Origin: a virus
Direction: 5' to 3' (one strand)
Length of the DNA stretch: 31,476 nt
IMG/VR virus record: IMGVR_UViG_3300032220_000675
Coordinates: 1 to 31,476 of that record
Within the stretch, counting starts at the first letter, position 1. Each line of letters begins with the position of its first letter. Position numbers and translations under genes: made by a program. This document shows positions 3,635 to 31,087 of the stretch, in pieces. Below the pieces are notes generated by a model that ran no database searches, had not been told where the DNA came from, and worked only from the letters and a program-made list of their open reading frames with translations.

Positions 3635-4358
3635 TACATTTAAACTAAAACGCTCTAAAGATAGAAAGGTTGCTAATGCCGTCACACCTAATGGAAAACA
3701 AGCAAGTATCGCAAATACCTTTGGCCTCCCTGCTGGAAAGGCTTTCTCGTGTCCTGGTGCCACGAGTGTATGTGAATCCGTATGCTATGCAGGAAAACTC
3801 GAAAAGATCTTCCCAACCGTAAAAGTTAACCTGCTACACAATTGGGCCCTGCTAAAAGACGCAGACTATTTAACTATGCTTAATCTCATTGCTGAGATGA
3901 TTGCTGATTTCAAGGCAGACTGTATCAAGAAAGACGCTCCTATGCTATTCCGTATCCATTGGGACGGAGATTTCTTTAACGATACTTATACTACCGCATG
4001 GTCTGATGTAATCAAACTTAATCCTGATGTACAATTTTGGGTATACACTCGTGTGAAGGCTGCAGCACTAATCTTAAAAGACATTGATAATCTTAGTCTT
4101 TATTTTTCTGCTGATAGTGAGAATGTAAAAACTGCCGTTGATTTAAAAATTAACAGTGGTGTACGCATGGCATACCTTGCTAAGAATTTTGCAATTGGTA
4201 AGGCAGACATAAAAGAAATGATTGGTAAGCCTGCTGCTAAGTGTCCTGAGAATAATAAACAGATTCCACTTATCTCAACAAATGGAAGCGCTTGCGTTTC
4301 TTGCTCACTTTGTGTATACTCTAAGAGTGACATAATTTTTTCATCGAGTAAGAAATGA
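3618..4358 (+). CDS. GP88-like Cys-rich phage protein
   Basis: A protein of about 246 residues, TTG-started (TTG 3618, or TTG 3624 giving MTTNTFKLK). Visible features: a conserved N-terminal block (DRKVANAV, NGKQASIANTFGLPAG), then C45-PGATSV-C52-ESV-C56-YAGK, a central HWDGDFF motif, FWVYTRV, and C-terminal cysteines (KCPENN, ACVSCSLC). This matches my memory of the mycobacteriophage GP88 family, whose function is not established. The clustered cysteines suggest a metal or Fe-S centre and have been likened to radical-SAM proteins, which I cannot confirm. It overlaps the gene before by about 17 nt. Confidence 0.65.
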   Translation: MALTTNTFKLKRSKDRKVANAVTPNGKQASIANTFGLPAGKAFSCPGATSVCESVCYAGKLEKIFPTVKVNLLHNWALLKDADYLTMLNLIAEMIADFKADCIKKDAPMLFRIHWDGDFFNDTYTTAWSDVIKLNPDVQFWVYTRVKAAALILKDIDNLSLYFSADSENVKTAVDLKINSGVRMAYLAKNFAIGKADIKEMIGKPAAKCPENNKQIPLISTNGSACVSCSLCVYSKSDIIFSSSKK

Positions 4359-4364
4359 GATAAC

Positions 4365-4427
4365 ATGCGTAGTACTCAAGTTATACTTTTATTTTGGTTG
4401 TTGCTTCTTTTATTTTTCCACCAATAA
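4365..4427 (+). CDS. Single-span membrane micropeptide (20 aa)
   Basis: A 20-residue frame (MRSTQ then a run of L, F, W, V, I) that would form one transmembrane helix. It begins 6 nt after the upstream stop. Short and unverified, though similar peptides occur elsewhere in the window. Confidence 0.35.
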   Translation: MRSTQVILLFWLLLLLFFHQ

Positions 4428-4487
4428 AATAAAAGGGGCCACGTCGCCAAGATCGAGGTTTGTCAAGTTTATGATAGGCCTTTAAGA

Positions 4488-4560
4488 TGTGATTAAGGAC
4501 ACACCGCAAATCCCCCGCTGGATTGGTATTTATGACATTTTTCTGCTAGAATTATAGTAT
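4488..4560 (+). promoter_or_regulatory. CRP-like operator and promoter
   Basis: TGTGA-TTAAGG-ACACA (4488-4503, one mismatch in the right arm), then ATGACA (4532-4537) and TAGTAT (4555-4560), spacer 17. The gene starts at 4598 with an AGAAAGG binding site. Confidence 0.5.
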
Positions 4561-4597
4561 AAGCAATTAACCCCCACAACAGAAAGGCAAGACCCAA

Positions 4598-4768
4598 ATG
4601 ACACTACACGGATACACTTACCAAATTGGTGATTTATTCACAACAAGCAAGACAGGCGTTACAGGTCGTATCGCAGGATTTACACCAATGTCTAATAAGG
4701 TTACTAGAGTTAGCCTCATCTTGGCAAATGGCGCACAACGCCTTGCTATGGTCAAGACCTCTAAGTAA
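4598..4768 (+). CDS. Small beta-rich protein, tandem paralog A (56 aa)
   Basis: A 56-residue protein. It aligns with the next gene: YQIGDLFTTSKTGVTGRI here against YKVGDTFTTQKSKVTGVI there, with similar strands after it. Possibly a small SH3-like barrel. It has its own promoter (4532-4560). Function unknown. Confidence 0.7.
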   Translation: MTLHGYTYQIGDLFTTSKTGVTGRIAGFTPMSNKVTRVSLILANGAQRLAMVKTSK

Positions 4769-4829
4769 TCTCACAATGTGAGAAATGTTAGGTTTCGATT
4801 TGACATTTCTACAACTAAAATGTTATACT
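4769..4829 (+). promoter_or_regulatory. Palindrome and promoter of paralog B
   Basis: TCTCACA-A-TGTGAGA (4769-4783) is a perfect 7-bp inverted repeat right after the stop of the 4598 gene. Its half-sites are CACA/TGTG in everted order. TTGACA (4800-4805) and TATACT (4824-4829), spacer 18, follow. The palindrome may be an operator or a weak transcription end. Confidence 0.5.
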
Positions 4830-4874
4830 TAGGTATAACTAAATAACAACCCCTAAACAGAAAAGAGAAAAACA

Positions 4875-5039
4875 ATGTCAGTAGCAACAGCAACATACAA
4901 GGTCGGCGACACTTTCACAACACAGAAGTCAAAGGTAACTGGAGTTATTCAAGAAATTAACCCACTACCAAATGGTAATGTGCGAGTTAAGTTAGATGTA
5001 AATGGTTCAGCCCGTTACACAACTTGGACGGCTAAGTAA
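4875..5039 (+). CDS. Small beta-rich protein, tandem paralog B (54 aa)
   Basis: A 54-residue protein homologous to its upstream neighbour (GDTFTTQKSKVTG motif). It ends with an aromatic/Thr-rich strand (YTTWTAK). AAAAGAGAAA precedes the ATG. It has a separate promoter. A repeated hairpin follows the stop. Confidence 0.7.
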   Translation: MSVATATYKVGDTFTTQKSKVTGVIQEINPLPNGNVRVKLDVNGSARYTTWTAK

Positions 5040-5055
5040 TTTAATTACTAATTCC

Positions 5056-5078
5056 TGAGCAAGAATACAAACTGCTCA
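5056..5078 (+). repeat. Repeated hairpin R2
   Basis: TGAGCA / TGCTCA, perfect 6-bp stem with 11-nt loop AGAATACAAAC, 16 nt after the stop at 5039. It is followed by the leader of the 5121 gene. Confidence 0.65.
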
Positions 5079-5120
5079 ACACCCCCAACTAATACCCCAC
5101 AAAAGAAAAGAGATAAACAG

Positions 5121-5543
5121 ATGGCTAGAGCAAAAGCAATAAATGTAAAAATCCCAACAGTTCGAGTAATCGCAGGACTAGAGCAAGCACTTGCTACACT
5201 AGAAACAGACTACGCAACACAAAACGAAAAAGAAGCACAATACGAAATTGCTCGCAAAGCATGGCAGAAAGAAGTTATTGACTATGCCGTAGCAAACATC
5301 AGCAAAGCAGAAAACTTCCGCACTAACTATCGTCATTGGTCAAATAATCTTAACATTGACTTTGACTTAACAGTTACAGAAAAAGAAATGCCAACAGAGC
5401 CTGAGAAAGACTTTGAGACAATTCACCTCAGCACTTATCGTGAGTCAAAGAAAGAAATCTCAAACGCAATTCGTCTGCTAAAGATGACAGATGAGGAAAC
5501 AGTTAATACCTCAACCTACAACGCAATCGCACAGTACCTATAA
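5121..5543 (+). CDS. Conserved phage protein (140 aa)
   Basis: A 140-residue helical, Lys/Glu-rich protein, probably a coiled coil (residues 18-60). GAAAAGAGA precedes the ATG. It resembles early actinophage proteins of unknown function. No catalytic motif seen. No separate promoter is obvious, so it may be read through from the promoter at 4800. Confidence 0.7.
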   Translation: MARAKAINVKIPTVRVIAGLEQALATLETDYATQNEKEAQYEIARKAWQKEVIDYAVANISKAENFRTNYRHWSNNLNIDFDLTVTEKEMPTEPEKDFETIHLSTYRESKKEISNAIRLLKMTDEETVNTSTYNAIAQYL

Positions 5544-6401: not shown

Positions 6402-6432
6402 TAGTATAAACAACAACAGAAAAGAGAAACTC

Positions 6433-7449
6433 ATGGCACATGACCTAGAAACACAAAACGGCGTTGCATCATTTGCATCATTCCGTGAACCTGCTTGGCA
6501 TGGATTGGGTACTGTATTCACAGAAGAAAAAACTACATCAGAAATGTTGGCGCTTGCTAATCTTTCTAATTGGAATGTTCGTCTTGAAGATTTAACAGTA
6601 CCGACCCACTTATCATCAGATAAGAATTATCAATATGTATTGCGTACTAACCCTACAGATACAACACAGACCGACATTCTTGGTGTCGTTGGTGAGCGTT
6701 ACCATGTAATGCAGAATGAAGATTTATTCTCATTCGGTGACAACATTCTAGACGGCGGAGGTCGTTGGGAGACTGCTGGCTCAATTAAGGGTGGCCGTGT
6801 TGTGTTCGGTGCATTGGCACTAGAGCGTGAGACTGTCCTAGACCCTAGCGGTGTTGCCGATAAGGTAAAGACTTATTTACTTATCAACACATCACATGAT
6901 GGCTCAATCGCTATTCAAGCAAGCATCACACCTGTTCGTGTTGTGTGCGCTAACACTCTCAATCTTGCTCTTGGCTCAATCAAGAAAAAGAATGGCGTTA
7001 AGCAATCATTCAAGATTCGTCACACACAGACTGCAAGCGGTAAGGTTGCCGTTGCTCGTGAGACTCTTGGAATGGCTAACAAGTACATGGACGCATTTGA
7101 TATTATGGCTAAGGCTATGATTGAAAAAGAAGTCAATGCTAAGCAATTCAATGATATTGTATTGGCTGCATATGCAAAACCAGAAACAGATGCTAAGGGT
7201 TCGCTAAAAAAGTGGGAGAATAAAATTGATTCAATCAATGATATTTACACAGGCGAGTTCAATGGTATGATTGCTGGTAGCGCATGGGGTGCTTTCAATG
7301 CACTAACTGAGCGCCTTGACTGGTATCGTTCTGCTCGTGGTGGTTCTAACGAATCAATCCTTGCATCAGCATCAGGATTTGACCCTGCTATCAACGCAGA
7401 AAAGAATCGTTTGCTAAAAGTTGTACAGAATGTAATGCAACTCGCATAA
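6433..7449 (+). CDS. DUF932 / phage-plasmid-like protein
   Basis: A 338-residue protein matching the DUF932 (phage/plasmid-like TIGR03299) family. Recognisable blocks: FREPAWHGLGTVF at residue 16, GVVGERYHVMQNEDLFSFGDNIL near 83, GGRVVFGALAL, and SITPVRVVCANTLNLAL near 160, typical of the family core. The C-terminus (GSAWGAFNALTERLDWYRSARG) is also typical. Members occur in phages, plasmids and near CRISPR loci, and their molecular role is unknown. It has its own operator module and promoter upstream. The start is set by the promoter and AAAGAGAAA site. A repeated hairpin and tRNA-Asp follow. Confidence 0.9.
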   Translation: MAHDLETQNGVASFASFREPAWHGLGTVFTEEKTTSEMLALANLSNWNVRLEDLTVPTHLSSDKNYQYVLRTNPTDTTQTDILGVVGERYHVMQNEDLFSFGDNILDGGGRWETAGSIKGGRVVFGALALERETVLDPSGVADKVKTYLLINTSHDGSIAIQASITPVRVVCANTLNLALGSIKKKNGVKQSFKIRHTQTASGKVAVARETLGMANKYMDAFDIMAKAMIEKEVNAKQFNDIVLAAYAKPETDAKGSLKKWENKIDSINDIYTGEFNGMIAGSAWGAFNALTERLDWYRSARGGSNESILASASGFDPAINAEKNRLLKVVQNVMQLA

Positions 7450-7460
7450 CAAAAAAATCC

Positions 7461-7483
7461 TAAGCATGATTTAAAACTGCTTT
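7461..7483 (+). repeat. Repeated hairpin R5
   Basis: TAAGCA / TGCTTT, five pairs plus a terminal T-T mismatch, with the 11-nt loop TGATTTAAAAC. It lies between the DUF932 stop and tRNA-Asp. Confidence 0.55.
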
Positions 7484-7491
7484 CCTTAATT

Positions 7492-7565
7492 GGAGTGTTA
7501 GCATAGTTGGTTAATGCGCTACCCTGTCACGGTAGAGATCACGGGTTCAAGTCCCGTACACTTCG
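7492..7565 (+). tRNA. tRNA-Asp (GTC)
   Basis: Full cloverleaf: acceptor GGAGTGT/ACACTTC with one G-T pair, D-stem GCAT/ATGC, anticodon stem CTACC/GGTAG with loop CTGTCAC (anticodon GTC), T-arm ACGGG-TTCAAGT-CCCGT, discriminator G. CCA is not encoded. It probably reads through from the DUF932 transcript. Confidence 0.9.
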
Positions 7566-15803: not shown

Positions 15804-15929
15804 ATGAACAAGGCCAAATGTTTTTTTTGCGATAAAGACGCAACTCATTACGATGTGGTAGTAGATCACGCCGAATATATAGTTGCAGATGTCTGCTTAA
15901 ATCATTTGTCTATGGGTCTTATTTCATAA
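15804..15929 (+). CDS. Zinc-ribbon mini-protein (41 aa)
   Basis: C6-FF-C9, H15, H22, C31 and H34 suggest a zinc site. TATAAT (15792-15797) is 6 nt before the ATG. Function unknown. Confidence 0.6.
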   Translation: MNKAKCFFCDKDATHYDVVVDHAEYIVADVCLNHLSMGLIS

Positions 15930-15930
15930 T

Positions 15931-16152
15931 ATGAATAGTAGAATACTTAAAGATGGATCAGAAATAATTTCATTTGAGACTCCAGTTGATTTAATTATAC
16001 ATACAAAAGCCCCTGGAAAATGGAAATTGATTGATTTAGAAACAGGAGAAGAATACCTTGGATCTGAAGTAGAAACTGGCTTTGCGGAAATTTTACGAGA
16101 AAAAGTTAAAAATGGCAAAATAGGAACTTGGATAAAAACTCTTGGTAAATAA
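15931..16152 (+). CDS. Hypothetical protein (73 aa)
   Basis: A 73-residue mixed alpha/beta protein. It starts one base after the previous stop. No family recognised. Confidence 0.55.
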   Translation: MNSRILKDGSEIISFETPVDLIIHTKAPGKWKLIDLETGEEYLGSEVETGFAEILREKVKNGKIGTWIKTLGK

Positions 16153-16185: not shown

Positions 16186-16341
16186 ATGAAATCAAATGTA
16201 GAGTCATGTGATTTAAAAGAACATTTATTTGAAAATGGTGGATTGACGCTCATTTGTTCAAAATGTTCAAAAACATTTGAAGAGTATCAGGAAGACTTGG
16301 AAGTTTTTATTAAAGACTATAGAAATAACAAGAAGTCTTAG
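16186..16341 (+). CDS. Zinc-ribbon protein, cassette paralog 1 (51 aa)
   Basis: C8, C24-SK-C27, H13, and an acidic C-terminal helix (YQEDLEVFIKDYRN). It is homologous to the gene at 23620. Both lie tail-to-tail with a glutathione-peroxidase-like gene. Here the two stops overlap by 4 nt. Confidence 0.65.
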   Translation: MKSNVESCDLKEHLFENGGLTLICSKCSKTFEEYQEDLEVFIKDYRNNKKS

Positions 16342-17024
16342 AGAACTATTGCATATGGCGCTAATGTTCCAGCAGGGTGTGTGTAATAAGTTATATCTTT
16401 ATCTTCTAATAATTCTTCAATTGCATTTGATATATTCTTAAAGTCTTCTCCTGAACTTGTTTCTTTAAAGCCATTTTTTGTAGCAGCATCCATCAAAGTA
16501 GAATTAGCATATCTTATAATAACCTTGCCATTTTTATTAACAAGGAATTTTTCAAAATTTCCAAACATTGGCAGACCTTTTGCAAGGTTTTGGTAAATTG
16601 GATGTACATCTTCTCCCTCTAACAGTTTTCTTGGAAAGGATTCTGTTCTACCTGGATATAATTTTTTTAATGCTTGATTTGAGATTGATGTACCAACCAT
16701 AGATGTAACTAGTTCAGAAAACCCATAGGTTACATTGTATAGTTCTTTTGCATAATCTCTTGCCTCTTCTGGACCATCAATCCCACATTCATACTGGTCA
16801 TAAGTAATTCCTGGACCACAATAGTCGTTGGTTGGTATGGCAACTACTTCAAATCCTCGATCTTTGTATTTTTGATATAGCATTTCTATGATGCCGTATT
16901 GAGGGGCATTGCCACAATCTGCAGTAACATTAATAAACATTGTTACCTTGCCTTTATAGGAATTTAGCATATTTTCTTGCCCATCCCACGATTTTAGTGG
17001 AATATCATAAATAGATGCTGTCAT
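16338..17024 (-). CDS. Glutathione-peroxidase-like protein 1
   Basis: A 228-residue thioredoxin-fold protein. NVTADCGNAPQY (C37) aligns with the GPx peroxidatic loop and the following GFEVVAIPTNDY with the GPx motif that usually reads FPCNQF. C69 could resolve. The usual tetrad Gln is replaced by D in TNDY, and the Trp of WNF is G155 in MFGNFEKF. So catalysis may differ from true GPx. AGGAGGA upstream sets the ATG. Homologous to the gene at 23771. It would reduce peroxides with an unknown donor. Confidence 0.7.
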   Translation of the reverse strand: MTASIYDIPLKSWDGQENMLNSYKGKVTMFINVTADCGNAPQYGIIEMLYQKYKDRGFEVVAIPTNDYCGPGITYDQYECGIDGPEEARDYAKELYNVTYGFSELVTSMVGTSISNQALKKLYPGRTESFPRKLLEGEDVHPIYQNLAKGLPMFGNFEKFLVNKNGKVIIRYANSTLMDAATKNGFKETSSGEDFKNISNAIEELLEDKDITYYTHPAGTLAPYAIVL

Positions 17025-17096
17025 ATGAGTCCTCCTAAAACTATGTGTTTATTATACACCTTTTATGCTAAATGGTCTTCACTTTGCATATTTGGC

Positions 17097-17125
17097 TTGA
17101 CATCTTGGTCATTATAAGATATAAT
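17097..17125 (+). promoter_or_regulatory. Promoter for the 17157 operon
   Basis: TTGACA (17097-17102), 17-nt spacer, TATAAT (17120-17125), the best sigma-70 match in the window. GGAGGAA precedes the ATG at 17157. Confidence 0.75.
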
Positions 17126-17156
17126 AAAAGTATAAAGTAAAACTATTGGAGGAATT

Positions 17157-17243
17157 ATGATACACGCACTATTTCTTATACCAGCGCTTATTACAGGGTA
17201 TATTGCTTGTTATATTGTAATGACATATAAAGTAGAGCAATAG
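17157..17243 (+). CDS. Single-span membrane micropeptide (28 aa)
   Basis: A 28-residue protein with a hydrophobic stretch (residues 4-22). A GGAGGAA site and a strong promoter lie upstream. Function unknown. Confidence 0.5.
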   Translation: MIHALFLIPALITGYIACYIVMTYKVEQ

Positions 17244-17244
17244 T

Positions 17245-17418
17245 ATGAGCGTAGATGAAATGTCATTGCGAGAAGAAATTGCAAGGGCTATAGAATCTAT
17301 TGAGATTCAAGACTCTATTACTAATGCCCTTGGTATGCGTATGCTTGCTGCAAAAGTAGCAAGGGGAGAAGATAACTATATGACAAATATGTTTGAAAGC
17401 CAAGTTGACTTTGAGTAA
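17245..17418 (+). CDS. Hypothetical protein (57 aa)
   Basis: A 57-residue helical protein. It begins 1 nt after the previous stop. No family recognised. Confidence 0.55.
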   Translation: MSVDEMSLREEIARAIESIEIQDSITNALGMRMLAAKVARGEDNYMTNMFESQVDFE

Positions 17419-17539
17419 AGAACCTAAGATTGCTCAAATGGATTGGCGTTCCCTAGGCTACTGGCCTATATGGAAAGATGGAAAGAAAGTCTGGGTACCT
17501 AGAGATGCTGAAGCATTCAACAAAAATAGAGAAGACTAG
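17411..17539 (+). CDS. Hypothetical protein (42 aa)
   Basis: Reads MSKEPKIAQMDWRSLGYWP from TTG 17411, or from ATG 17438 as a 33-residue product. Trp- and Tyr-rich middle. The next gene overlaps. Start uncertain. Confidence 0.45.
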   Translation: MSKEPKIAQMDWRSLGYWPIWKDGKKVWVPRDAEAFNKNRED

Positions 17540-17750
17540 AATCTGGCCACTAAGGATTATAGGTAATTTCCTTGGTGGTTATGCTAGTAATCATTTAGTC
17601 AAGTCTCTTGATCTAGATGAAGATAATAATTTGGGATTACGCTTTAAGTACCATGCAAAAATGTGGAAATATCTTAATAAACCTTATGAGCGGTGGGGCA
17701 CTTACTACAGCCTAGACTTAGATGCGTGGAAAAAAGATTTAAATGGCTAA
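17505..17750 (+). CDS. Hypothetical protein (81 aa)
   Basis: An 81-residue basic protein (MLKHSTKIEKTRIWPL). An in-frame ATG at 17478 is possible. The C-terminal half (KYHAKMWKYLNKPYERWG) is aromatic-rich. It overlaps the convergent oxygenase gene by 12 nt. Function unknown. Confidence 0.55.
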   Translation: MLKHSTKIEKTRIWPLRIIGNFLGGYASNHLVKSLDLDEDNNLGLRFKYHAKMWKYLNKPYERWGTYYSLDLDAWKKDLNG

Positions 17751-18311
17751 ATATTTTGGAACTTTTATTTTTTCATATATTCCATTTGAATAAGAATATC
17801 GAACTCCTGATGTAACTTTAAGGACTTCGTGAGTGCAATGATCTTCTGCGCTATGAATAACTAAATCACCTGGCTCTGGTTTATAAGTAATTGACTGGTT
17901 TGGGTATCTAAGTTCTCCACCACCAAAATCGTTTATATAGGTAACAGTACCAAAAATGTTATTATTTTTTAATATAAATTCTTCTCCTTCTTTTAAAAGC
18001 AAACTTTGTTTTCTTACATCTAAAAAGGCATCATTGTCTGCATGTAGACCCCAGGTATCTCCTATGCTTAATATATTCATGGTGCTACAATTTGTAATAT
18101 GATATGGATCTTTTACTATTTGTTTAATTTTATTATATATAATAGTAAGACTTTTAATTTCTTTACTAGTATTTTTAGTATCCCACAAGGATTCTTTCTT
18201 TAAATTAATTTCATTATTTATGGTTAACAAATCTTCATTAGATAAAAAATTTTTATATACGTATATGTCTTCACCAATTTGAGTTAAATTATTTAAATTA
18301 AAAGGTATCAT
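17739..18311 (-). CDS. 2OG-Fe(II) oxygenase
   Basis: A 190-residue protein. H90-A-D92 and H161 for iron, R171 (SGVRYSYS) for 2-oxoglutarate, with GGGELRYPNQ and KPEPGDLVIH between, as in prolyl-4-hydroxylase-like phage enzymes. Target unknown. TATAAT (18318-18323 reverse) lies 6 nt before the ATG. Shares the intergenic region with the gene at 18387. Very close in its C-terminal core to the one at 19847. Confidence 0.85.
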   Translation of the reverse strand: MIPFNLNNLTQIGEDIYVYKNFLSNEDLLTINNEINLKKESLWDTKNTSKEIKSLTIIYNKIKQIVKDPYHITNCSTMNILSIGDTWGLHADNDAFLDVRKQSLLLKEGEEFILKNNNIFGTVTYINDFGGGELRYPNQSITYKPEPGDLVIHSAEDHCTHEVLKVTSGVRYSYSNGIYEKIKVPKYLAI

Positions 18312-18317
18312 ATTTAC

Positions 18318-18379
18318 ATTATATCATTATTCGCTGTCAAAATTATCAATTTGACACAGACTTTAATTTTTGATATAAT
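18318..18379. promoter_or_regulatory. Divergent leaderless promoters
   Basis: Plus: TTGACA (18351-18356), spacer 17, TATAAT (18374-18379), ATG 18387 (7-nt gap). Minus: TATAAT (18318-18323), 6-nt gap to the ATG at 18311. A reverse TTGACA (18335-18340) sits closer than usual. Confidence 0.6.
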
Positions 18380-18386
18380 AGATAAT

Positions 18387-18836
18387 ATGAAACCAACAGC
18401 ACATATATACGATGTAGACGGAACGCTTGCCAATATAGATCCCTATCTGCACTATGTTCGTGGCTCTAATAGGGACTACGATGCCTTTCATGAGGCTTCT
18501 ATAGATGCCCTGCCAAATGTAAATGTTTTAGAAATGTTAAATAATTCTGTTAGTGATGGTCATTCTATCCTTGTTGTTACTTCACGTAAAGAGAAATATC
18601 GTGGACTTACATCTATGTGGCTTGCTAAAAATAATATTAGATCTCATGGTTTATTTATGAGGGCAGATAACGATAATAGACCAGACTATGAAGCAAAAAA
18701 AGATATGCTTGATAAAATAACTTTACTATGGAATGTAACTCATGCTATAGATGACAATCCAAATGTGATAAGACTATGGGAAGATCACAACATTGCTACA
18801 ACCAAAATAGGAACATGGGATGGGCAAAAGTCTTGA
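18387..18836 (+). CDS. HAD-superfamily phosphatase, Pnkp 3'-phosphatase-like
   Basis: A 149-residue protein. D9-V-D11-GTLANI is the catalytic DxD of HAD phosphatases. VVTSRKEKYR fits motif II, and DMLDKI ... HAIDDNPNV motifs III/IV. It resembles the phosphatase domain of phage polynucleotide kinases but lacks the kinase domain. It may process 3' ends of cut RNA or DNA. The start at 18387 is set by the promoter; an earlier in-frame TTG at 18351 is the -35. Confidence 0.75.
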   Translation: MKPTAHIYDVDGTLANIDPYLHYVRGSNRDYDAFHEASIDALPNVNVLEMLNNSVSDGHSILVVTSRKEKYRGLTSMWLAKNNIRSHGLFMRADNDNRPDYEAKKDMLDKITLLWNVTHAIDDNPNVIRLWEDHNIATTKIGTWDGQKS

Positions 18837-18861
18837 TATATATACTTGAATATGGTATGAT
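18833..18861 (+). promoter_or_regulatory. Leaderless promoter
   Basis: TTGATA (18833-18838), 17-nt spacer, TATGAT (18856-18861). ATG 18868 is 6 nt on. Confidence 0.6.
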
Positions 18862-18867
18862 TAGTTT

Positions 18868-18996
18868 ATGAGCAAACGAGTTAAAAAAATTTATAAATGC
18901 GTTGAGTGTGAGACTATGATTACTATTGTAACAAAAGTTCACGAACTACCCGAATCAATTATTTGTCCTTGTGACAACGTAGCAGAAAGCCAGTGA
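18868..18996 (+). CDS. Zinc-ribbon mini-protein (42 aa)
   Basis: C11-VE-C14 and C33-P-C35. Basic N-terminus (MSKRVKKIYK). Leaderless start. Function unknown. Confidence 0.55.
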   Translation: MSKRVKKIYKCVECETMITIVTKVHELPESIICPCDNVAESQ

Positions 18997-19001
18997 TCTA
19001 A

Positions 19002-19166
19002 TTGAAAAAATCTAACAACAAGGTATCTCAACACAAAATTAATAGAGCAACAAAAAATAAAAAAAGAATAAAAAATAAGCCCTATCTTTCTAAATTTGAA
19101 ATACAACAAAATAGAATAAGAGAAGAACTCTTACTCCCTGCTTTATCATTAATGGGTAAAAGTTAA
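19002..19166 (+). CDS. Small basic protein (54 aa)
   Basis: A very basic protein (KKSNNKVSQHKINRATKNKKRI) from a TTG start 6 nt after the previous stop. Perhaps nucleic-acid binding. The start lacks a clear ribosome binding site. Confidence 0.4.
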   Translation: MKKSNNKVSQHKINRATKNKKRIKNKPYLSKFEIQQNRIREELLLPALSLMGKS

Positions 19167-19172
19167 ATAATC

Positions 19173-19838
19173 ATGACATTTTTAAAAGGTTTTGCCAAAG
19201 AATTGTCAGAATCAGAAGTTAGTTTTAAAGAAATACATAGCAATATTTTTATAGTAGAAGATTTTATTCCTCAAGAAACGATAGATGACTGTTTTGCTAT
19301 CATAAATAAAACCACAGAATCAGAGTGGAGTTCTTTTTATTTAGAAAATTTAAAAACTTTCTGTATGGAAAAATTTAACAGAGATGATGTTGAAAACCTT
19401 GTTGCTGAAGGTAAATTTGAAATTACTGAAAACTGGGCCGATAAAAATCTTTATATTCCAGACTCTTTGATTGCTAAAACAATTATAAAAAGAATAAATG
19501 ATCTGATAGAAAAAACAGACCAGTCTCTTGCATTGATTGGTTGCCACACTATTCAAAGAATGTATAATGGTGTTGAACTATTTTCTCATACAGATGTACA
19601 TACAGACCCTTCAATTCAGTATGCAGCGATTTTTTACCTTAATGATAATTATGAAGGTGGACAACTTTTCTTTGAAAACTTAAACATATCTTTAAAACCA
19701 AAGGCTGGATCTCTTGTGCTTTTTCCAGGAACGGAAGAATTTAAACATGGCGTAACAGTTGTAAATCCTGGACCTACAAGATACGTTCTTGTTGGATTTA
19801 TAAAAACAAAAGATTTTTACAATAAAAATAAATTCTAA
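19173..19838 (+). CDS. 2OG-Fe(II) oxygenase
   Basis: A 221-residue protein with H139-T-D141 (or H143-T-D145), H192 and R203 in the prolyl-4-hydroxylase-type core. EGGQLFF and KPKAGSLVLFPG mark the jelly-roll strands. The N-terminal half (residues 1-120) is specific to this gene. It starts 6 nt after the gene before. Substrate unknown. Confidence 0.85.
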   Translation: MTFLKGFAKELSESEVSFKEIHSNIFIVEDFIPQETIDDCFAIINKTTESEWSSFYLENLKTFCMEKFNRDDVENLVAEGKFEITENWADKNLYIPDSLIAKTIIKRINDLIEKTDQSLALIGCHTIQRMYNGVELFSHTDVHTDPSIQYAAIFYLNDNYEGGQLFFENLNISLKPKAGSLVLFPGTEEFKHGVTVVNPGPTRYVLVGFIKTKDFYNKNKF

Positions 19839-19846
19839 TTATAAAA

Positions 19847-20563
19847 TTAAGAAATGTAAGGAAGTTTTTCTCTTTCAACCATTTCGTCTGGTAATATAAC
19901 CAGTTGATCATTTTTCTTTAGTGGGTCTAGCCAAGTTTCTTCTATACGAGAAGGGTCCGCTGTTTGAAGTTTATATTCTTCAGTACCATAATTGTTAAAA
20001 GTTCCTGGATTTTTAATTGCTTCTAAACAAAAGTTTGAATATGAGTATCTTGATCCAGAAAGGACTGGTTTAACTCCATGAGCATAATCTTCTAATGCGC
20101 CATGAATAACTAAATCCCCTGGCTGAACGGGTATAACTATGTCTTGTTTTGGATAAAAAACTTCTCCTCCAGTAAACTCCCCAAAGTAAACACAAACTCC
20201 AAATTCTAATAGGCAACATGTTGACCATATGTCTGGTAATGTTAGGTTTTCATGATTTCCTTCACCAGGACTATCCCAATGAGGTTCCATTCCTGCGCCC
20301 TCTTTATAATGAAGCATGCTTAACAATGGGTGAACAACATATTGTGGAGCAAGTAGTTCAGAAACCTTTACCCAAACAGGAAAAACTTCTGGGATAGATT
20401 CTGTGACACCATAGTTTACTACTCCAAATGGATGTTTTGTAGATTTATCTTCTCGCTCTTTTAATATTTTATTTACAAAATCAACCTCTTCCTTACTAAT
20501 AAAATTAGGAATGTAATAGAGTTTCTCGTCTAGCCTTTGAAGGTTTGGATGTGATATAGTCAT
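19847..20563 (-). CDS. 2OG-Fe(II) oxygenase
   Basis: A 238-residue protein (MTISHPNLQR). H95-W-D97, H162 and R172 for iron and 2-oxoglutarate. TGGEVFYP and QPGDLVIHGA as in the others. A C-terminal extension of about 60 residues (after 180) is unique. TATAAT (20570-20575 reverse) is 6 nt before ATG 20563. An upstream ATG at 20581 is less likely. Target unknown. Confidence 0.85.
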   Translation of the reverse strand: MTISHPNLQRLDEKLYYIPNFISKEEVDFVNKILKEREDKSTKHPFGVVNYGVTESIPEVFPVWVKVSELLAPQYVVHPLLSMLHYKEGAGMEPHWDSPGEGNHENLTLPDIWSTCCLLEFGVCVYFGEFTGGEVFYPKQDIVIPVQPGDLVIHGALEDYAHGVKPVLSGSRYSYSNFCLEAIKNPGTFNNYGTEEYKLQTADPSRIEETWLDPLKKNDQLVILPDEMVEREKLPYIS

Positions 20564-20637
20564 GACTTTATTATAGCACAATTTTTAGACTATACTTCAA
20601 TATATTCCCGACTTTAGGCCTATGGTATAATTGTAAT

Positions 20638-21420
20638 ATGAGACAATGCACCTGTGGTAGGTCAAAAACCTATCCCTATTGTGACAATACTCACAAAACA
20701 AAGGTAAATTCTGAAGATCTCACCCTCTCCTCAACCGACAACAACATAAGAGAAACTATACTATCAAAAATGAAAGAATCAGATAAAACTGGCAAAGTTT
20801 TATTTTTAAAAGGTTTTATGAGTCAATCTCCTGAATGGGGTGATTTTGTTGGCTTAATAAATCATCAATATAATAACCCAATAATTGATGAAGTAAGTGA
20901 AGATATCTATGATAAATCAAAAAAAGAAGAACATGGGGATCACGGGCCAAAGATTTTGTTAAATAATAACAACAAAAGTACAAACATGTATTCATTAAAA
21001 AAATTAGATTTACATGTTTTACGTATAAAGCAAATACCTCCTCTTGAACATAGTTGGTACAACATGCCATATCTTGATAATTTTTTATCTATATTCTATA
21101 AACAGGATATGCTAAACACTGTAAAGTCTTTAATAAATTTTGCTGGAAATGAATATGTTGGAACTGGTCATTCAGATAGGCAGTCTGTCGTTTCTTGGAC
21201 ATGCGCTGGAGAAGTTGAATATAGAATTTATCATATTAAAAACAGTACAGAAAGAGATTCATTAACTTATGAACAACAAAGAACTTTGACTTATGATTCA
21301 TACATTATGAGACCTGGAGATGTTATGTATATACCTATTGGTGTTTTTCATAGTGCTGTTGCAACTTTTCCAAGGGCATCTTTAATTTTAGACTATGATG
21401 CTTTAAATATACAAGGATAA
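20638..21420 (+). CDS. CDGSH iron-sulfur domain fused to JmjC/cupin-like oxygenase
   Basis: A 260-residue protein. Residues 4-19 read C4-x-C6-x2-S-x3-P-x-C15-D-N-T-H19, the CDGSH [2Fe-2S] motif with N for G. Residues 50-260 match the gene at 12632: H178-S-D180, SWTCAGEVEYRIY, RPGDVMYIPIGVFH (H238), RASLILDY. The fold would bind Fe(II). The C-terminal half may act as an oxygenase while the CDGSH unit gives electrons or senses redox. Leaderless promoter (TATAAT 20626-20631). Confidence 0.75.
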   Translation: MRQCTCGRSKTYPYCDNTHKTKVNSEDLTLSSTDNNIRETILSKMKESDKTGKVLFLKGFMSQSPEWGDFVGLINHQYNNPIIDEVSEDIYDKSKKEEHGDHGPKILLNNNNKSTNMYSLKKLDLHVLRIKQIPPLEHSWYNMPYLDNFLSIFYKQDMLNTVKSLINFAGNEYVGTGHSDRQSVVSWTCAGEVEYRIYHIKNSTERDSLTYEQQRTLTYDSYIMRPGDVMYIPIGVFHSAVATFPRASLILDYDALNIQG

Positions 21421-21424
21421 CCAT

Positions 21425-22213
21425 ATGTCAACCAAACTTATTTTAAATGGTTTTACTATAAACCCTGTGACACATCTTCCTCATTTGATAGATATTCTTA
21501 GAGGACTTACAGAATATAGTATAAAGCATAAGTGTGATACAGGATCAGACGGACCAATACATACAAACTATTTAGGAAAACCAATTTTTGGACCTGTAGG
21601 AACAAAGATACCAGATATACATTCTGATAATGCTGGAAGTATTGTTCAAGGTATACTAGAAAATGGATACTATACTTGTAGAGTTTGGGAAAACTGTTAC
21701 CCTGCAAAAATTCAATTTGATCTTTTTTTAGAAAATGATTTACCTGATATTGACTTAATCATAGATCATTTTTCTGCTCCTGCTATTCCTCAAGATGGTC
21801 TTGGGCTTTTTGATTATACCTATTCTATAAGTAAAACTAAAGAACATACAACAACATTACAAAAAGATAGAAATAAAGATTCGGCATATGATGTCAATGA
21901 TTTGATTGCCTTTGATAAAAATGGTAACTGGTCTGTTACTTTAAACAGATTAAAGAGCCCTGAATGTTATTTTTGTAATAAAAACCCTGAACACTGGATA
22001 TCTCTAAATAAAAATACTGATAAGAATCATACAGATTGGATTTCGGTTTTGTCTTGTACAAATCACAAAGGTTTAGGGAAAACAATAGAAGATGTGTATT
22101 CTGACAAGGCTAATCAATATTATTCAAATCAAGATGATAGAATTTACGTTATAAAAGAAATTAAAAATGAAAATAATGAAGTTATGTTTACAGTAAATGT
22201 GCCAGAAGAATAA
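21425..22213 (+). CDS. Unknown protein, weak AdoMet-decarboxylase-like segment
   Basis: A 262-residue protein, 4 nt after the CDGSH-cupin gene (AAGGATAA binding site), so likely in the same operon. Residues about 70-120 hold an ILENGYYTCRVWEN...FDLFL segment loosely like S-adenosylmethionine decarboxylase, but the pro-enzyme ESH cleavage motif is missing. The C-terminal part has C179-YFC ... SC-TNHKG, a possible zinc site. I do not assign a function. Confidence 0.55.
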   Translation: MSTKLILNGFTINPVTHLPHLIDILRGLTEYSIKHKCDTGSDGPIHTNYLGKPIFGPVGTKIPDIHSDNAGSIVQGILENGYYTCRVWENCYPAKIQFDLFLENDLPDIDLIIDHFSAPAIPQDGLGLFDYTYSISKTKEHTTTLQKDRNKDSAYDVNDLIAFDKNGNWSVTLNRLKSPECYFCNKNPEHWISLNKNTDKNHTDWISVLSCTNHKGLGKTIEDVYSDKANQYYSNQDDRIYVIKEIKNENNEVMFTVNVPEE

Positions 22214-22230
22214 ATTAAAATTAATAAAAG

Positions 22231-22259
22231 TTGACATTTATTTGCCTATTTGCTATACT
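22231..22259 (+). promoter_or_regulatory. Promoter of the tRNA/ahpCD unit
   Basis: TTGACA (22231-22236), 17-nt spacer, TATACT (22254-22259). Transcription would begin about 22266, just before tRNA-Met, and could continue to ahpD. Confidence 0.7.
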
Positions 22260-22267
22260 TAGACTAT

Positions 22268-22341
22268 GCACCAGTAGCCAAGTTGGTTAAGGCACCGAAC
22301 TCATAATTCGGCTATCGTAGGTTCAAGTCCTACCTGGTGTA
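22268..22341 (+). tRNA. tRNA-Met (CAT) or tRNA-Ile (CAT)
   Basis: Acceptor GCACCAG/CTGGTGT (G-T first pair), D-stem GCC/GGC, anticodon stem CCGAA/TTCGG with loop CTCATAA, T-arm GTAGG-TTCAAGT-CCTAC, discriminator A. CAT could be elongator Met or a lysidine-modified Ile isoacceptor. Confidence 0.85.
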
Positions 22342-22345
22342 CTAA

Positions 22346-22418
22346 TGGGGATTAACTCAGATGGTAGAGTGCCGAACTGTTAATTCGGATGTCGCAGGAT
22401 CGATGCCTGCATCCCCAG
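22346..22418 (+). tRNA. tRNA-Asn (GTT)
   Basis: Acceptor TGGGGAT/ATCCCCA, D-stem ACTC/GAGT, anticodon stem CCGAA/TTCGG with loop CTGTTAA, T-arm GCAGG-ATCGATG-CCTGC. Discriminator G. Four nt after the tRNA-Met. Confidence 0.85.
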
Positions 22419-22421
22419 CAA

Positions 22422-22480
22422 TGCCAGAACTTTGGCACTAGGGTAAGATAAGAAAGTTGGTGCAAATCCAACCTGCCCTA
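22422..22480 (+). ncRNA. Structured leader of ahpC (riboswitch-like)
   Basis: TGCCA/TGGCA hairpin (22422-22437), then TAGGGTA (22439-22445) pairing TGCCCTA (22474-22480) enclosing GTTGG-TGCAAAT-CCAAC (22456-22472). The GGTGCAAATCC loop looks like the L5 region of cobalamin riboswitches, but the rest of the aptamer is not clear. It also looks like a T-arm, although no complete tRNA fits. It lies 18 nt before the ahpC ATG. Confidence 0.45.
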
Positions 22481-22498
22481 CTAACAGAAAGAGAAAAA

Positions 22499-23035
22499 AT
22501 GAAAACAGTTGGAGATAAGTTAGGCAACTTTGCAGTAACTGGAGTTAAGCCTGGAGCATTAACATATGATGATTCATCATTTGAAACTATAACACAAGAT
22601 TCTTTTCCAGGAAAATGGAAAATAATTATGTTTTATCCAAAAGACTTTACATTTGTATGCCCAACAGAAATTGTTGCATATGATGCTTTAGTTAATGATT
22701 TTAATGATCGTGATACAGTCCTTATGACTGGATCAGTTGATAATGAATTTTGTAAGATTGCATGGCGTAATGCTCATGACGATCTTAAGAGAACTAACTC
22801 ATGGTCATTTGCAGACACAGCACATCAACTGGCTGGAGATCTTGGAGTTCATCACTCATCTGGAGTTGCTTATCGTGCAACCTTTATTGTTGATCCTGAC
22901 AATACTATTCAGCATGTAACTGTTAATAACCTTGATGTAGGTCGTAATGCAGATGAAGCACTTCGAGTTCTTGATGCCCTGCAAACTGGAGAACTTTGTG
23001 CATGCAATAGACCGCTAGGTGGAGACACTTTATAA
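22499..23035 (+). CDS. ahpC: AhpC, 2-Cys peroxiredoxin
   Basis: A 178-residue alkyl hydroperoxide reductase. Peroxidatic C54 lies in DFTFVCPTE. The resolving pair is C167-A-C169 in GELCACN. This C-A-C tail fits the actinobacterial AhpC type. It reduces hydrogen and organic peroxides using electrons passed through AhpD. AAAGAG precedes the ATG. Its stop overlaps the AhpD start (TAATG). It lies downstream of two tRNAs and a structured leader. Confidence 0.9.
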   Translation: MKTVGDKLGNFAVTGVKPGALTYDDSSFETITQDSFPGKWKIIMFYPKDFTFVCPTEIVAYDALVNDFNDRDTVLMTGSVDNEFCKIAWRNAHDDLKRTNSWSFADTAHQLAGDLGVHHSSGVAYRATFIVDPDNTIQHVTVNNLDVGRNADEALRVLDALQTGELCACNRPLGGDTL

Positions 23036-23547
23036 TGACTTGGGTTGAACAATTAAACGAAAACCTTCCCGAATATGCCAAAGATATTAGGCTTAATCTT
23101 GATGCTGTAATTAACAGATCTACCATTGATGCTAATGATGCATTGTATATTGCAATTGCAGCAGCATTTGCAACTGGTAATTCAAAACTACTTACATTTT
23201 TGGTATCTAATGCAACAGATGAAGTAGAAAAAAATGCTGCACTATCTGCTGGCGCTATTATGGCACAAAATAATACATGGTATCCATATGTAGAAATGGC
23301 TGGGGATGCAAACTTAAAAGGCTTACCAGCCCAACTAAGAATGAATGCTATTACTTCTCATGGTGGAACAACTAAGGGTAAGTTTGAAGCCTACTCTTTA
23401 TCGTCTTCAATCATAGGAAAATGTCATTTCTGTGTTAAAGCACACTATGATACATTAAAACAAGAAGGTTACAGTGTTGATCAATTACGTGATATTGGAC
23501 GAATTTCTGCAACCATCAATGCATTAGCAAAGATACTTTCAGCATAA
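23035..23547 (+). CDS. ahpD: AhpD, alkylhydroperoxidase
   Basis: A 170-residue helical protein. Active site C130-HF-C133 with H137 (KCHFCVKAH) and E118. AhpD reduces AhpC using lipoamide/dihydrolipoamide in mycobacteria. The joint ahpC-ahpD arrangement matches the host system, so it was probably captured as a unit. Translation is coupled to ahpC by TAATG. A repeated hairpin (R6) follows the stop. Confidence 0.9.
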   Translation: MTWVEQLNENLPEYAKDIRLNLDAVINRSTIDANDALYIAIAAAFATGNSKLLTFLVSNATDEVEKNAALSAGAIMAQNNTWYPYVEMAGDANLKGLPAQLRMNAITSHGGTTKGKFEAYSLSSSIIGKCHFCVKAHYDTLKQEGYSVDQLRDIGRISATINALAKILSA

Positions 23548-23556
23548 AAAAAGTCC

Positions 23557-23578
23557 TGGGTATGACTAAAACTGCCTA
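23557..23578 (+). repeat. Repeated hairpin R6
   Basis: TGGGTA / TGCCTA pair with two G-U pairs around a 10-nt loop TGACTAAAAC. It is 9 nt after the ahpD stop, preceded by GTCC, 16 kb from the next nearest copy. Confidence 0.55.
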
Positions 23579-23619
23579 ACAACTAACACATTAACTGTAA
23601 AGTGTAGTATAATGGTTTT

Positions 23620-23763
23620 ATGGAATCAAATATCTGTAAAGTTTATGAACATATTTTTAGTGTAGATAAAGACAGTGTTCTCAAGTGTGAAAAATGTAAC
23701 AAAACATATATGCAATATATGGATGAGATTGAAGAGCATCTTAAAGGATATAGAAAGTTTTAA
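23620..23763 (+). CDS. Zinc-ribbon protein, cassette paralog 2 (47 aa)
   Basis: C6, C23-EK-C26, H11, and an acidic helix (YMDEIEEHLKGYRKF). It is homologous to the 16186 gene. Leaderless (TATAAT 23608-23613, 6 nt). It ends 8 nt from the stop of the convergent peroxidase-like gene. Confidence 0.65.
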   Translation: MESNICKVYEHIFSVDKDSVLKCEKCNKTYMQYMDEIEEHLKGYRKF

Positions 23764-23770
23764 TTTAAAA

Positions 23771-24388
23771 CTATTTTGCTAATGCGTTTTCTATATCATT
23801 ACAAATTCTGATGTATGCTAAATCTGCTCTGCCAGCCTTCTCAGAATAATTTAGCAGTGCTCCATTATCATAATTTTTTAATAATTTTCCATCTTTTCCT
23901 ACCAAATATTTTTCAAAATTACCGCCCAAAGTTCCTCCACCATCTGCAGATGTTGGATCCTTCTTCCAAAGTTCCTCTGACATTTTGCATAAAACATTAT
24001 AAACTTCATGAGGAGTAACCTTACCATGTTTAGATGGCAATCCTGGGATAAGTTCGTCTTCGCAAGGGTTAGATTCAATTAATTCAGTAAACTTGTATGT
24101 GACTCCATAATTTGTTTTTGCAAATTCTCTTGCTGATTCTGCAGTGTCTGTTCCATAAACATGATCTCCATATGTTAAACCAACGCCACAATAATCATTG
24201 GTTGGAATAGCAATTACTTCAAAACCTTTATCTTTGTATTTTCTGTATATTGTTTCAATAACTCCATATTGAGGAGCATTACCACAGTCACCAGTAACAT
24301 TAATAATCAAAGTTACTTTACCTTTATAGTTATTTAAAAAATCCTCTTCTTGATCTGCGGACTTAATCTTTACATCATATACAGACAT
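23771..24388 (-). CDS. Glutathione-peroxidase-like protein 2
   Basis: A 205-residue paralog of the 16338 protein. C35 in NVTGDCGNAPQY. C67 in PTNDYCG. The GPx Gln and Trp are replaced as in the paralog (TNDY, GGNFEKYLV). GGAG is 7 nt before the chosen ATG (24388). The ATG at 24394 is too close to it. It should reduce peroxides, perhaps coupled to the AhpC/AhpD locus next door. Confidence 0.7.
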   Translation of the reverse strand: MSVYDVKIKSADQEEDFLNNYKGKVTLIINVTGDCGNAPQYGVIETIYRKYKDKGFEVIAIPTNDYCGVGLTYGDHVYGTDTAESAREFAKTNYGVTYKFTELIESNPCEDELIPGLPSKHGKVTPHEVYNVLCKMSEELWKKDPTSADGGGTLGGNFEKYLVGKDGKLLKNYDNGALLNYSEKAGRADLAYIRICNDIENALAK

Positions 24389-25674: not shown

Positions 25675-26214
25675 TTACATGTATAGGCTACTGTAACAAT
25701 CTTTTGTGTATACTTTATTTGTAGTAAAACAAAATGTCATGGCATACCTGACTCCACTTGTAACTTCTTCAACATAGTGCATAGACTCATCTCCATGAGA
25801 TGGAAAAGTTATTGCAACACCTTTTGATGGTTTTATTTTAACAATAATTTTTTGATTTGGAAAGACAATTTGACCACCTTCATATTCATCGTCAAAATAA
25901 ACTAGCATACCAAGAATATCTTCATCACAACCTTTTTGAATATCAGAATGCAAGCACATATCATCTCCTATATTATATTTCACAATTGATGATGAGTGAA
26001 TGTATATATCTTTTTCTAATATTTTTTTTATTTTTTCAGTATAGAGTGAAACAAGAGTAAGGAAATCTAAATCATACTGATCCTGAAATAATGTTGTATA
26101 CCTATCTCCCTTATTGTTACCTCTATAAAGACCTTCTAATTTTTTAAATATTTGTAAAGCATAAACAATTTCTTCTTCTGTAGTAAAATTATAATATTGT
26201 TTTATCATTATCAA
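25675..26214 (-). CDS. 2OG-Fe(II) oxygenase
   Basis: A 179-residue protein with H89-S-D91 and H146 for iron and R156 (SGVRYAMT). EGGQIVFPNQ and KPSKGVAITFP mark the core strands. AAGG lies 7 nt before the ATG at 26214. It overlaps the small gene upstream, so translation may be coupled. Target unknown. Confidence 0.85.
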   Translation of the reverse strand: MIMIKQYYNFTTEEEIVYALQIFKKLEGLYRGNNKGDRYTTLFQDQYDLDFLTLVSLYTEKIKKILEKDIYIHSSSIVKYNIGDDMCLHSDIQKGCDEDILGMLVYFDDEYEGGQIVFPNQKIIVKIKPSKGVAITFPSHGDESMHYVEEVTSGVRYAMTFCFTTNKVYTKDCYSSLYM

Positions 26215-26336: not shown

Positions 26337-26912
26337 ATGCATATATCGAGACCATTTAATAATGAAATTGTCGTAGTTGAAAACTTTTTGACTCAAGATG
26401 AGGCTGACTACATTCTTGATTTAGCAACAAAAGACATTTCCTTGTGGGATGCCTCAAATGATGGATCTGGACTTACAGAGCAATATGGCAATAGGCTACA
26501 AATTGACGAATACAATTTAAGAGATAGGTATCGTGACTACAATTGGTTCTTTAAAATGCTTGAAGAAAGAGCAAAGCCGATATTTTCTAAAGAATATGGT
26601 ATTTCAGATTTTTCTTTTTTACCAATAACCTCAATTTTTAGAAGAATGGGTCATGGACTGGATGTTCATACTGATGAAGTTGATAAAGATCACCCTCAAT
26701 ATGATGCATCTCTACCAATTATTACTCACGGTTTTGTAGTTTATATTAACAATAACTATAGTGGTGGAGAAATTTTTTATCCAAATAAAAATATAATTAT
26801 GAAACCAAAGGCTTTGTCTTTAGTTATGCATCCTGGAAATAAAGAATACGAGCATGGAGTTAATGACGTAACGAAAGAAATAAGATATAATCTTGCTTGG
26901 TGGACTAGATAG
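26337..26912 (+). CDS. 2OG-Fe(II) oxygenase
   Basis: A 191-residue protein with H111-T-D113, H173 and R183 (EIRYNLAWW). SGGEIFYPNKN and KPKALSLVMHPG mark the core. TATAAT (26325-26330) is 6 nt before the ATG, so leaderless. The intergenic region is divergent with the small gene at 26296. A multi-hairpin stretch follows. Confidence 0.85.
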   Translation: MHISRPFNNEIVVVENFLTQDEADYILDLATKDISLWDASNDGSGLTEQYGNRLQIDEYNLRDRYRDYNWFFKMLEERAKPIFSKEYGISDFSFLPITSIFRRMGHGLDVHTDEVDKDHPQYDASLPIITHGFVVYINNNYSGGEIFYPNKNIIMKPKALSLVMHPGNKEYEHGVNDVTKEIRYNLAWWTR

Positions 26913-27036: not shown

Positions 27037-27441
27037 CTACCTAATTTCAATAGTTTTTGGTAGTTTATCTTCTGGGATCTGCTTCTCAAGTTTGATATCT
27101 AAGATACCGTCCTTGAATTCAGCCCCAACAACTTCGACAAACTCAGGAAGAGTGAAGATATCAGTGAACTTGCGAGCAGCAATTCCCTTATGTAGATACT
27201 CCGCACCCTCTGGTAACTCAGCGTCCTGCTTCTCGCCCTTAATTGTAAGTTTGCGATTGTCTAGCGACACTGAGACATCATCCTTAGAGAACCCAGCCAA
27301 AGCAAATGAAAGAATGTACTCTGTGTCATTTAGTTTGACTTGATTGTAAGGTGGATAGTTTGTTGTTGTTGTTACCTTCTGAAAATTTGAGAAGGTATTG
27401 AAAAATGGATCATTAAAAAGATCCAGTGCTGTTTTTACCAT
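27037..27441 (-). CDS. Hsp20/alpha-crystallin small heat shock protein
   Basis: A 134-residue small chaperone. The NYPPYNQVKLNDTEYILSFALAGFSKDDVSV segment and the closing IKLEKQIPE match the alpha-crystallin domain. Hsp20 proteins are common in phages, where they may protect virions or proteins during assembly. GAAAGGGG precedes the ATG. The promoter is at 27499-27527. Confidence 0.9.
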   Translation of the reverse strand: MVKTALDLFNDPFFNTFSNFQKVTTTTNYPPYNQVKLNDTEYILSFALAGFSKDDVSVSLDNRKLTIKGEKQDAELPEGAEYLHKGIAARKFTDIFTLPEFVEVVGAEFKDGILDIKLEKQIPEDKLPKTIEIR

Positions 27442-30141: not shown

Positions 30142-30471
30142 TCAGTTTTTATTAAAAAGAACCTTGATTATTTCTTCTATGATTACTCTTTCATCACTTG
30201 GTAAAGATTTTATAGCCATGGAATCAAAAGATTTTGGTCCTAATTTTACTAAAGGATCTTTATTTGTTACGTCCATGTTAAGAAAACCCTTTTCCCAAAG
30301 TTTTAAAGTTATATCTGAAAAGTATATTGATAGTTCATCGCTAAGTTGAGCATCTATTTTCTTAAGCCTTTCTGTAGGCTTGTATAGTGACTCACCAGTT
30401 TCAGAATCTTTTCCTGCAAACTCTAGGCCTCCATTTAAAATTAAATTATCGACAATGTCAAACTCATCCAT
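30142..30471 (-). CDS. Hypothetical protein (109 aa)
   Basis: Starts MDEFDIVDNLILNG at 30471, overlapping the upstream oxygenase gene by 8 nt. Longer in-frame starts run far inside that gene. Acidic, mostly helical. It is probably translated together with the oxygenase. No family recognised. Confidence 0.6.
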   Translation of the reverse strand: MDEFDIVDNLILNGGLEFAGKDSETGESLYKPTERLKKIDAQLSDELSIYFSDITLKLWEKGFLNMDVTNKDPLVKLGPKSFDSMAIKSLPSDERVIIEEIIKVLFNKN

Positions 30472-31087
30472 TAGTCCACCCAGTTTGAAATTTAACTCTA
30501 TTTTCCCAAAACCCAGGAACAATATATTTTTCTCCAGATAGTATGGTGTTTGATTGATGGAAATATGGTTTTCTTGATGGGAAAACAACAATGCTTCCTG
30601 GAGTTGGTTTTACAATAATGTCATGATCTGGTAATTCTATCTCTCCGCCTGTATAATCGTCATTTAAATATAAGACCACAGACACAGTTTTGCCTTCATC
30701 ATCGTCATGGGTATCCGTATGCTTGCCCATCATGCTACCAACAAAATACTTACTAATAGATAGTGGGCAGAGCATTCCAATATCTAGCCCTGGATGCATA
30801 GACTCATAGTCTTTTGATACAGCAATAATTGAATCTGTAATTTCTTTTTCAATTTCTCGACACTCAATGTATGCTGGGTGGGCTTTATTAAATAAATGCT
30901 CACGAATCATTTTTTGTTTTCCAAATGCATAATCTGACTGATAGGCTGTCCAATCAGCCCACTTGCTTACTCCAGTATCTTCTCCCAGTAGGTGATCAGT
31001 GGCTTCTATTTTTTCAAGAAGTTCTTTAGGGTTTTCAATAACATTTTCATAATAATAAACATGCTTTTCTAAAATATTTCTTTTCAT
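30464..31087 (-). CDS. 2OG-Fe(II) oxygenase
   Basis: A 207-residue protein with H123-T-D125 and H177 for iron. The 2-oxoglutarate position is a lysine, K187 (SGEKYIVPGF), instead of arginine. TGGEIELPD and KPTPGSIVVFPS mark the core. It overlaps both neighbours by 4-8 nt. It is the only oxygenase in the late minus block. Substrate unknown. Confidence 0.85.
   Translation of the reverse strand: MKRNILEKHVYYYENVIENPKELLEKIEATDHLLGEDTGVSKWADWTAYQSDYAFGKQKMIREHLFNKAHPAYIECREIEKEITDSIIAVSKDYESMHPGLDIGMLCPLSISKYFVGSMMGKHTDTHDDDEGKTVSVVLYLNDDYTGGEIELPDHDIIVKPTPGSIVVFPSRKPYFHQSNTILSGEKYIVPGFWENRVKFQTGWTNG

Follow-up and report, generated by a model that had tools for sequence, protein, structure and literature searches.

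The IMG/VR virus record IMGVR_UViG_3300032220_000675 is a linear viral record of 31 kb, analyzed here over its full length of 31,476 nucleotides (nt), hereafter the window. It contains two gene pairs, A and B, each composed of a small gene for a putative CHCC zinc-ribbon protein (ZR1 and ZR2) and of a gene for a thiol peroxidase of the glutathione peroxidase (GPx) family (GPxA and GPxB). A previous reading, made from the sequence alone, had described both pairs and their common tail-to-tail layout, and both were found where it had placed them (Table 1). It had also described convergent overlap, which stands for pair A, where the stop codons are interlocked over 4 nt (16338-16341), but not for pair B, whose genes are separated by a gap of 7 nt. 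A consensus scan of the two junctions revealed no shared terminator. The partners are homologous between the copies, as that reading had recognized: GPxA and GPxB share 44% identity (E 6e-57), and ZR1 and ZR2 share 38% (E 2e-9 in a single comparison). For GPxB, the start at 24388 appears preferable to the longer open reading frame (ORF) from 24394, because of the spacing of the ribosome-binding site and the family N-terminus MS[IV]YD. ZR1 differs from its counterpart in a contig of the same species (L011) by eight substitutions, of which five are synonymous.

Table 1. Genes and signals of the window discussed in the text (aa, amino acids).
Feature	Position	Strand	Basis and remarks
ZR1, CHCC zinc-ribbon protein, 51 aa	16186..16341	+	ORF; ZR2 homologue; CHCC ligands invariant in 7 members
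GPxA, glutathione-peroxidase-family thiol peroxidase, 228 aa	16338..17024	-	PF00255, E 5e-14
ZR2, CHCC zinc-ribbon protein, 47 aa	23620..23763	+	ORF; TATAAT-N6-ATG start; AlphaFold2 model
GPxB, glutathione-peroxidase-family thiol peroxidase	23771..24388	-	PF00255, E 4e-15; structure model
TATAAT, candidate leaderless promoter of ZR2	23608..23613	+	6 nt ahead of the ZR2 start codon
AhpC-like peroxiredoxin	22457..23035	+	PF00578, E 3.5e-23; upstream of ZR2, same strand
AhpD-like alkylhydroperoxidase	23035..23547	+	PF02627, E 1e-7; TIGR00777 AhpD, E 6e-32, under its cut-off
2OG-Fe(II) oxygenase-family genes (2OG, 2-oxoglutarate)	17739-18311, 19173-19838, 19847-20563, 25675-26214, 26337-26912, 30464-31087		PF13640

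Features of the two proteins

The predicted zinc ligands C6, H11, C23 and C26 (C, H, CxxC) are invariant in seven members of the small protein family, at 23-78% identity. The AlphaFold2 model of ZR2 (predicted local distance difference test, pLDDT, 81) has a beta hairpin and then a helix at residues 30-46. In sequence and model, the proteins appear to be zinc ribbons, with the ligand pairs on the predicted hairpin. The acidic C-terminal helix noticed in the earlier reading is present in ZR1 and ZR2 but is not conserved among their homologues. Among known phage families, phrog_8315, which comprises small zinc-ribbon-like proteins, gave a weak profile match to ZR2 (E 5e-4), whereas the other six members do not match it.

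Both GPx proteins pass the Pfam GSHPx model (PF00255) with 52.2 and 55.8 bits, for a gathering cut-off of 27, and both match phrog_5295, a phage family left without function by PHROGs. The GPxB model (pLDDT 84; predicted template modeling score, pTM, 0.86) adopts the GPx variant of the thioredoxin fold. Its best VIA-align match was the GPx of S. aureus (Z 22.0, root mean square deviation 1.7 over 157 residues), and the top 50 entries were all GPx-family structures or GPX4-based designs (Z 16.5-22). By sequence, the best PDB match was yeast Hyr1/Gpx3, and the alignment to Hyr1 puts the peroxidatic position at Cys37. Four residues, Cys37, Cys69, His129 and Asn159, do not vary among 44 family members. 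As DCGNAPQ and GNFEK served as search patterns, the invariance of both, Cys37 included, is partly due to selection; no such bias affects Cys69 and His129.

The phage proteins thus resemble Cys-type, or thioredoxin-type, GPx (PF00255; yeast Hyr1/Gpx3, S. aureus GPx, E. coli BtuE) in fold over nearly the whole chain, in the peroxidatic motif NVxxxCGxxPQ and in the motif NFEKFLVxKxG. They differ from them by a change of the tetrad Gln to Asp, Glu or Asn and of the tetrad Trp to Gly, by a 30-50 residue insertion ahead of the NFEKF motif, and by an extra invariant cysteine. The latter, Cys69, lies two residues past the tetrad Gln position in the motif T-N-[DEN]-x-C-G and is a plausible resolving residue. 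The extra cysteine and the altered tetrad set these proteins apart as a phage GPx subfamily, and its chemistry may differ from that of textbook GPx.

Association of the two genes in other viruses

Four scans, made with the zinc ribbon alone over 2.9 million viral contigs, detected 24 loci, spread over 15 public viral contigs, besides the window. All 24 lie beside a GPx gene, with 3-69 bases between the open frames. Similarly, a profile search of 27 whole GPx-bearing records, some of which are fragments, gave 15 zinc ribbons in 12 records, 15 of 15 beside GPx and none elsewhere. As no zinc ribbon without an adjoining GPx was found in either set, these data support the functional link that the sequence-only reading had suggested. 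That reading had made its proposal depend on the homologues being linked in related phages: this holds for every zinc ribbon found but not for most GPx relatives, which GPx-seeded scans detected in many viral contigs. The dependence is one-sided, every zinc ribbon found occurring with GPx and most GPx occurring without a zinc ribbon.

Outside these viruses, a scan of 84,980 species genomes for a bacterial origin gave only two relatives, on metagenome-assembled genome contigs of 3.0 and 9.4 kb. In cultured phages there was no close GPx (matches below 30% identity over most of the query, and 35% at best over half of it) and a single, insignificant zinc-ribbon match. Two other GPx contexts were observed. 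In L041, a thioredoxin gene (1244-1609) lies directly upstream of GPx on the same strand, and is a candidate phage-encoded electron donor for it. In L035, a record which also has the pair, a second, short GPx/redoxin-like gene (7070-7513, 147 aa) shares about 25% identity with the main family.

The linkage is conserved, but the convergence is not. Tail-to-tail pairs occur in the window and in other contigs of its phage type that are almost identical to it. In L007, L015-L017 and L018-L019, the pair is co-directional (head to tail), with the zinc ribbon ahead of GPx; in L033 and L035, it is divergent (head to head). L007 and L015 have further neighbours in common; L018 has other genes directly next to the pair, which is nonetheless retained. 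In L033, homologues of the AhpC and AhpD of the window (92% and 82% identical) share the strand of the zinc ribbon, as in the window, but the pair stands on the opposite side of them.

These arrangements bear on the proposal, made in the earlier reading, that convergent overlap serves antisense control. Mutual control of the genes, by antisense or by collision, would agree with the tail-to-tail layout of both window pairs and with the overlap in one of them. However, pair A has no more overlap than its interlocked stop codon and pair B has none, and because the pairs of relatives are co-directional or divergent, control by convergent ends is not supported and is not a general reason for the linkage. 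We consider it a very improbable explanation.

As for transcription signals, the stop codon of the zinc ribbon in L007, L015 and L018 lies within TGATATAAT, a sequence standing six bases ahead of the GPx start codon. Starts of the form TATAAT-N6-ATG are found at GPx in these three contigs, at the zinc ribbon in L033 and L035, and at ZR2; GPxA and GPxB have a Shine-Dalgarno sequence instead, with TATAAT farther upstream. Over the window, TATAAT-N4-8-ATG occurs 17 times for 5.7 expected, a count reached by none of 100 shuffles, whereas TATAAT alone is not enriched. The spacing of six is commonest at ATGs opening frames of at least 40 aa, for example at 15804, 18311 (-), 20563 (-), 20638, 23620 and 26337, and often as TGnTATAAT. 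These elements look like leaderless promoters, and would point to accessory genes being widely transcribed without leaders in this actinophage. Since several copies have separate candidate promoters, co-transcription is an unlikely reason for the linkage.

The zinc ribbon could also bind DNA or RNA as a small regulator of the adjoining GPx gene, possibly sensing peroxide through zinc loss. Small regulators are often encoded beside their target, and the head-to-head layout of L033 and L035 would permit autoregulation. In convergent pairs, however, the zinc ribbon lies far from the GPx promoter; moreover, the helix and surface of ZR1 and ZR2 are not notably basic and no DNA-binding family was matched. 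Such a role seems unlikely to us.

Origin of the two pairs

In a GPx tree of 26 rows (LG+G4), GPxB is joined in one clade by every co-directional or divergent partner (L007, L015, L018, L033, L035; support 100/99), and GPxA lies outside it. A clade of GPxA and GPxB was rejected (approximately unbiased test, p 0.0013), and one uniting every zinc-ribbon-bearing GPx was not (p 0.25). By tree path, the nearest relative of GPxA is the GPx of L034 (54-56% identity), a 51.6-kb record without zinc ribbon. The zinc-ribbon tree groups ZR1 and ZR2 weakly (77/82) and is too short to tell whether pair A arose by ancient duplication or by recruitment at a later time. Divergence of the two proteins is parallel (Mantel r 0.93, exact p 0.0004), a correlation partly driven by close pairs.

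According to the sequence-only reading, the pair had undergone duplication and its members had stayed together. If the whole cassette had been duplicated recently in this phage lineage, the same layout of both pairs and the weak grouping of the zinc ribbons would be accounted for. Nevertheless, as GPxB nests with the GPx of other phages and the joint clade is rejected, the data do not support such a duplication, and we judge this origin scarcely credible. The pairs may instead derive from an older duplication or from two separate acquisitions. A genuine local duplication is seen in L042, where two GPx genes (3992-4639 and 4654-5280) stand in direct tandem and form one clade (96/97), without zinc ribbon.

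Beside pair A, a small gene at 15931-16152 resembles by eye a gene of L034 (3709-3939), which lies next to the GPx of that record in divergent orientation, where the zinc ribbon is missing.

Putative peroxidase partnership in a freshwater actinophage

From the exclusive and orientation-independent adjacency of the two genes, we infer a physical or redox partnership between their products. With moderate confidence, we propose that the window encodes two cognate pairs, each formed by an actinophage thiol peroxidase and a dedicated zinc-ribbon partner protein (47-70 aa in the family). GPx would reduce peroxides through Cys37, with resolution through Cys69 or another thiol, and its reducing power would come from host thioredoxin or mycothiol, not from glutathione. 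Actinobacteria generally use mycothiol. The zinc ribbon would act on or with GPx, as a bound subunit, a localisation factor or a zinc-thiolate redox partner. Selection would probably keep both genes in one transferable block since the proteins work together; the start signals proper to each gene in several copies, together with the occurrence of all orientations, argue for such joint work and not for a shared transcript or opposed transcription.

Several points weigh against this partnership. The canonical tetrad (Cys, Gln, Trp, Asn) is altered at two of its four positions, with Asn kept. A fold search with the 47-aa zinc-ribbon model gave no PDB match better than E 0.97, and no Pfam family was found for the zinc ribbons, the matches of ZR2 being all under cut-off and those of other members weak. 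The parallel divergence loses significance when thinned to four distant pairs. No zinc ribbon was found in 15 of the 27 GPx-bearing records, that of L034 included, an absence which is weaker evidence in fragmentary ones; since most GPx relatives are without it, the zinc ribbon is not required for GPx function in general. Finally, the clear cases of the pair are all confined to a single GPx clade and GPxA, and independent pairings are therefore few.

This restricted distribution, the many GPx without zinc ribbon and the abundance of other small Cys-rich ORFs in the window would also suit neutral neighbours derived from one ancestor, the zinc ribbon being unrelated in function and single-gene inversions having failed to separate the pair. 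Against such neutrality, the adjacency outlasts at least two orientation changes, differing flanks and a zinc-ribbon identity of about 30%, while most other neighbours change, and no unlinked zinc ribbon was found. We regard neutral adjacency as possible but rather doubtful.

Known systems offer one parallel for the proposed partnership. In the Gpx3/Orp1-Yap1 peroxide relay of yeast, a GPx-family protein works with a cysteine-containing partner, Orp1 oxidizing Yap1. The phage pair would have the same two kinds of component; however, its zinc ribbon is unrelated to Yap1. By analogy, Cys37 and Cys69 of GPx might oxidize the zinc-binding thiols of the cognate zinc ribbon, leading to zinc release and altered activity. 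We hold such a virus-encoded peroxide-sensing relay to be distinctly unlikely; if it existed, pairs A and B would each form a sensor channel of their own.

The virus is a freshwater actinophage. WhiB is encoded in 16 of the 23 records searched, window included, and marks the predicted host as actinobacterial, at that level alone. The AhpC and AhpD genes, which share one base, lie directly upstream of ZR2. Also, the window carries six genes of the 2OG-Fe(II) oxygenase family, and 20 of 21 related records searched (within G001-G026) have 1 to 15 each, which amounts to a large and unexplained expansion in these phages. A search of open-licence literature found no report of 2OG oxygenases in freshwater phages. 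We do not claim a linkage between them and GPx: 9 of 21 GPx loci have one within 700 bp for 4.2 expected, with related phages among the nine, and the excess is weak because these phages carry so many such genes. Two JmjC/cupin-type genes are present as well. One of them (20638-21420) encodes a JmjC-type protein with a CDGSH-type half motif at its N-terminus (PF09360, E 1.7e-6, just under cut-off), part of which is 62% identical to an 83-aa protein of L034 (618-869, minus strand); L033 encodes a small protein containing CDGTH (6431-6616). A phage-encoded Hsp20 small heat-shock protein lies at 27037-27441 (PF00011, E 7e-17).

Genes against oxidative stress are common in freshwater phages: one study (PMC6802176) reports them, glutathione peroxidases included, in more than 10% of its phage genomes, and many of these phages are actinophages recognized by whiB. 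The genes described here, with phrog_5295, resemble these in being GPx genes, many of them in whiB-bearing phages of actinobacteria, but the zinc-ribbon partner is not mentioned in the passages of that study consulted. No report of the pairing was found in the open-licence literature. GPx genes as such were already known in freshwater phages.

In culture, some acI actinobacteria rely on catalase supplied from outside (PMC7527133). As acI actinobacteria are a likely kind of host, peroxide handling during infection becomes a directly testable question. So far, the oxidative-stress genes of freshwater phages have been regarded as auxiliary genes that each stand alone. That one phage GPx clade has kept an exclusive small partner through orientation changes suggests a phage-specific partner or regulation.

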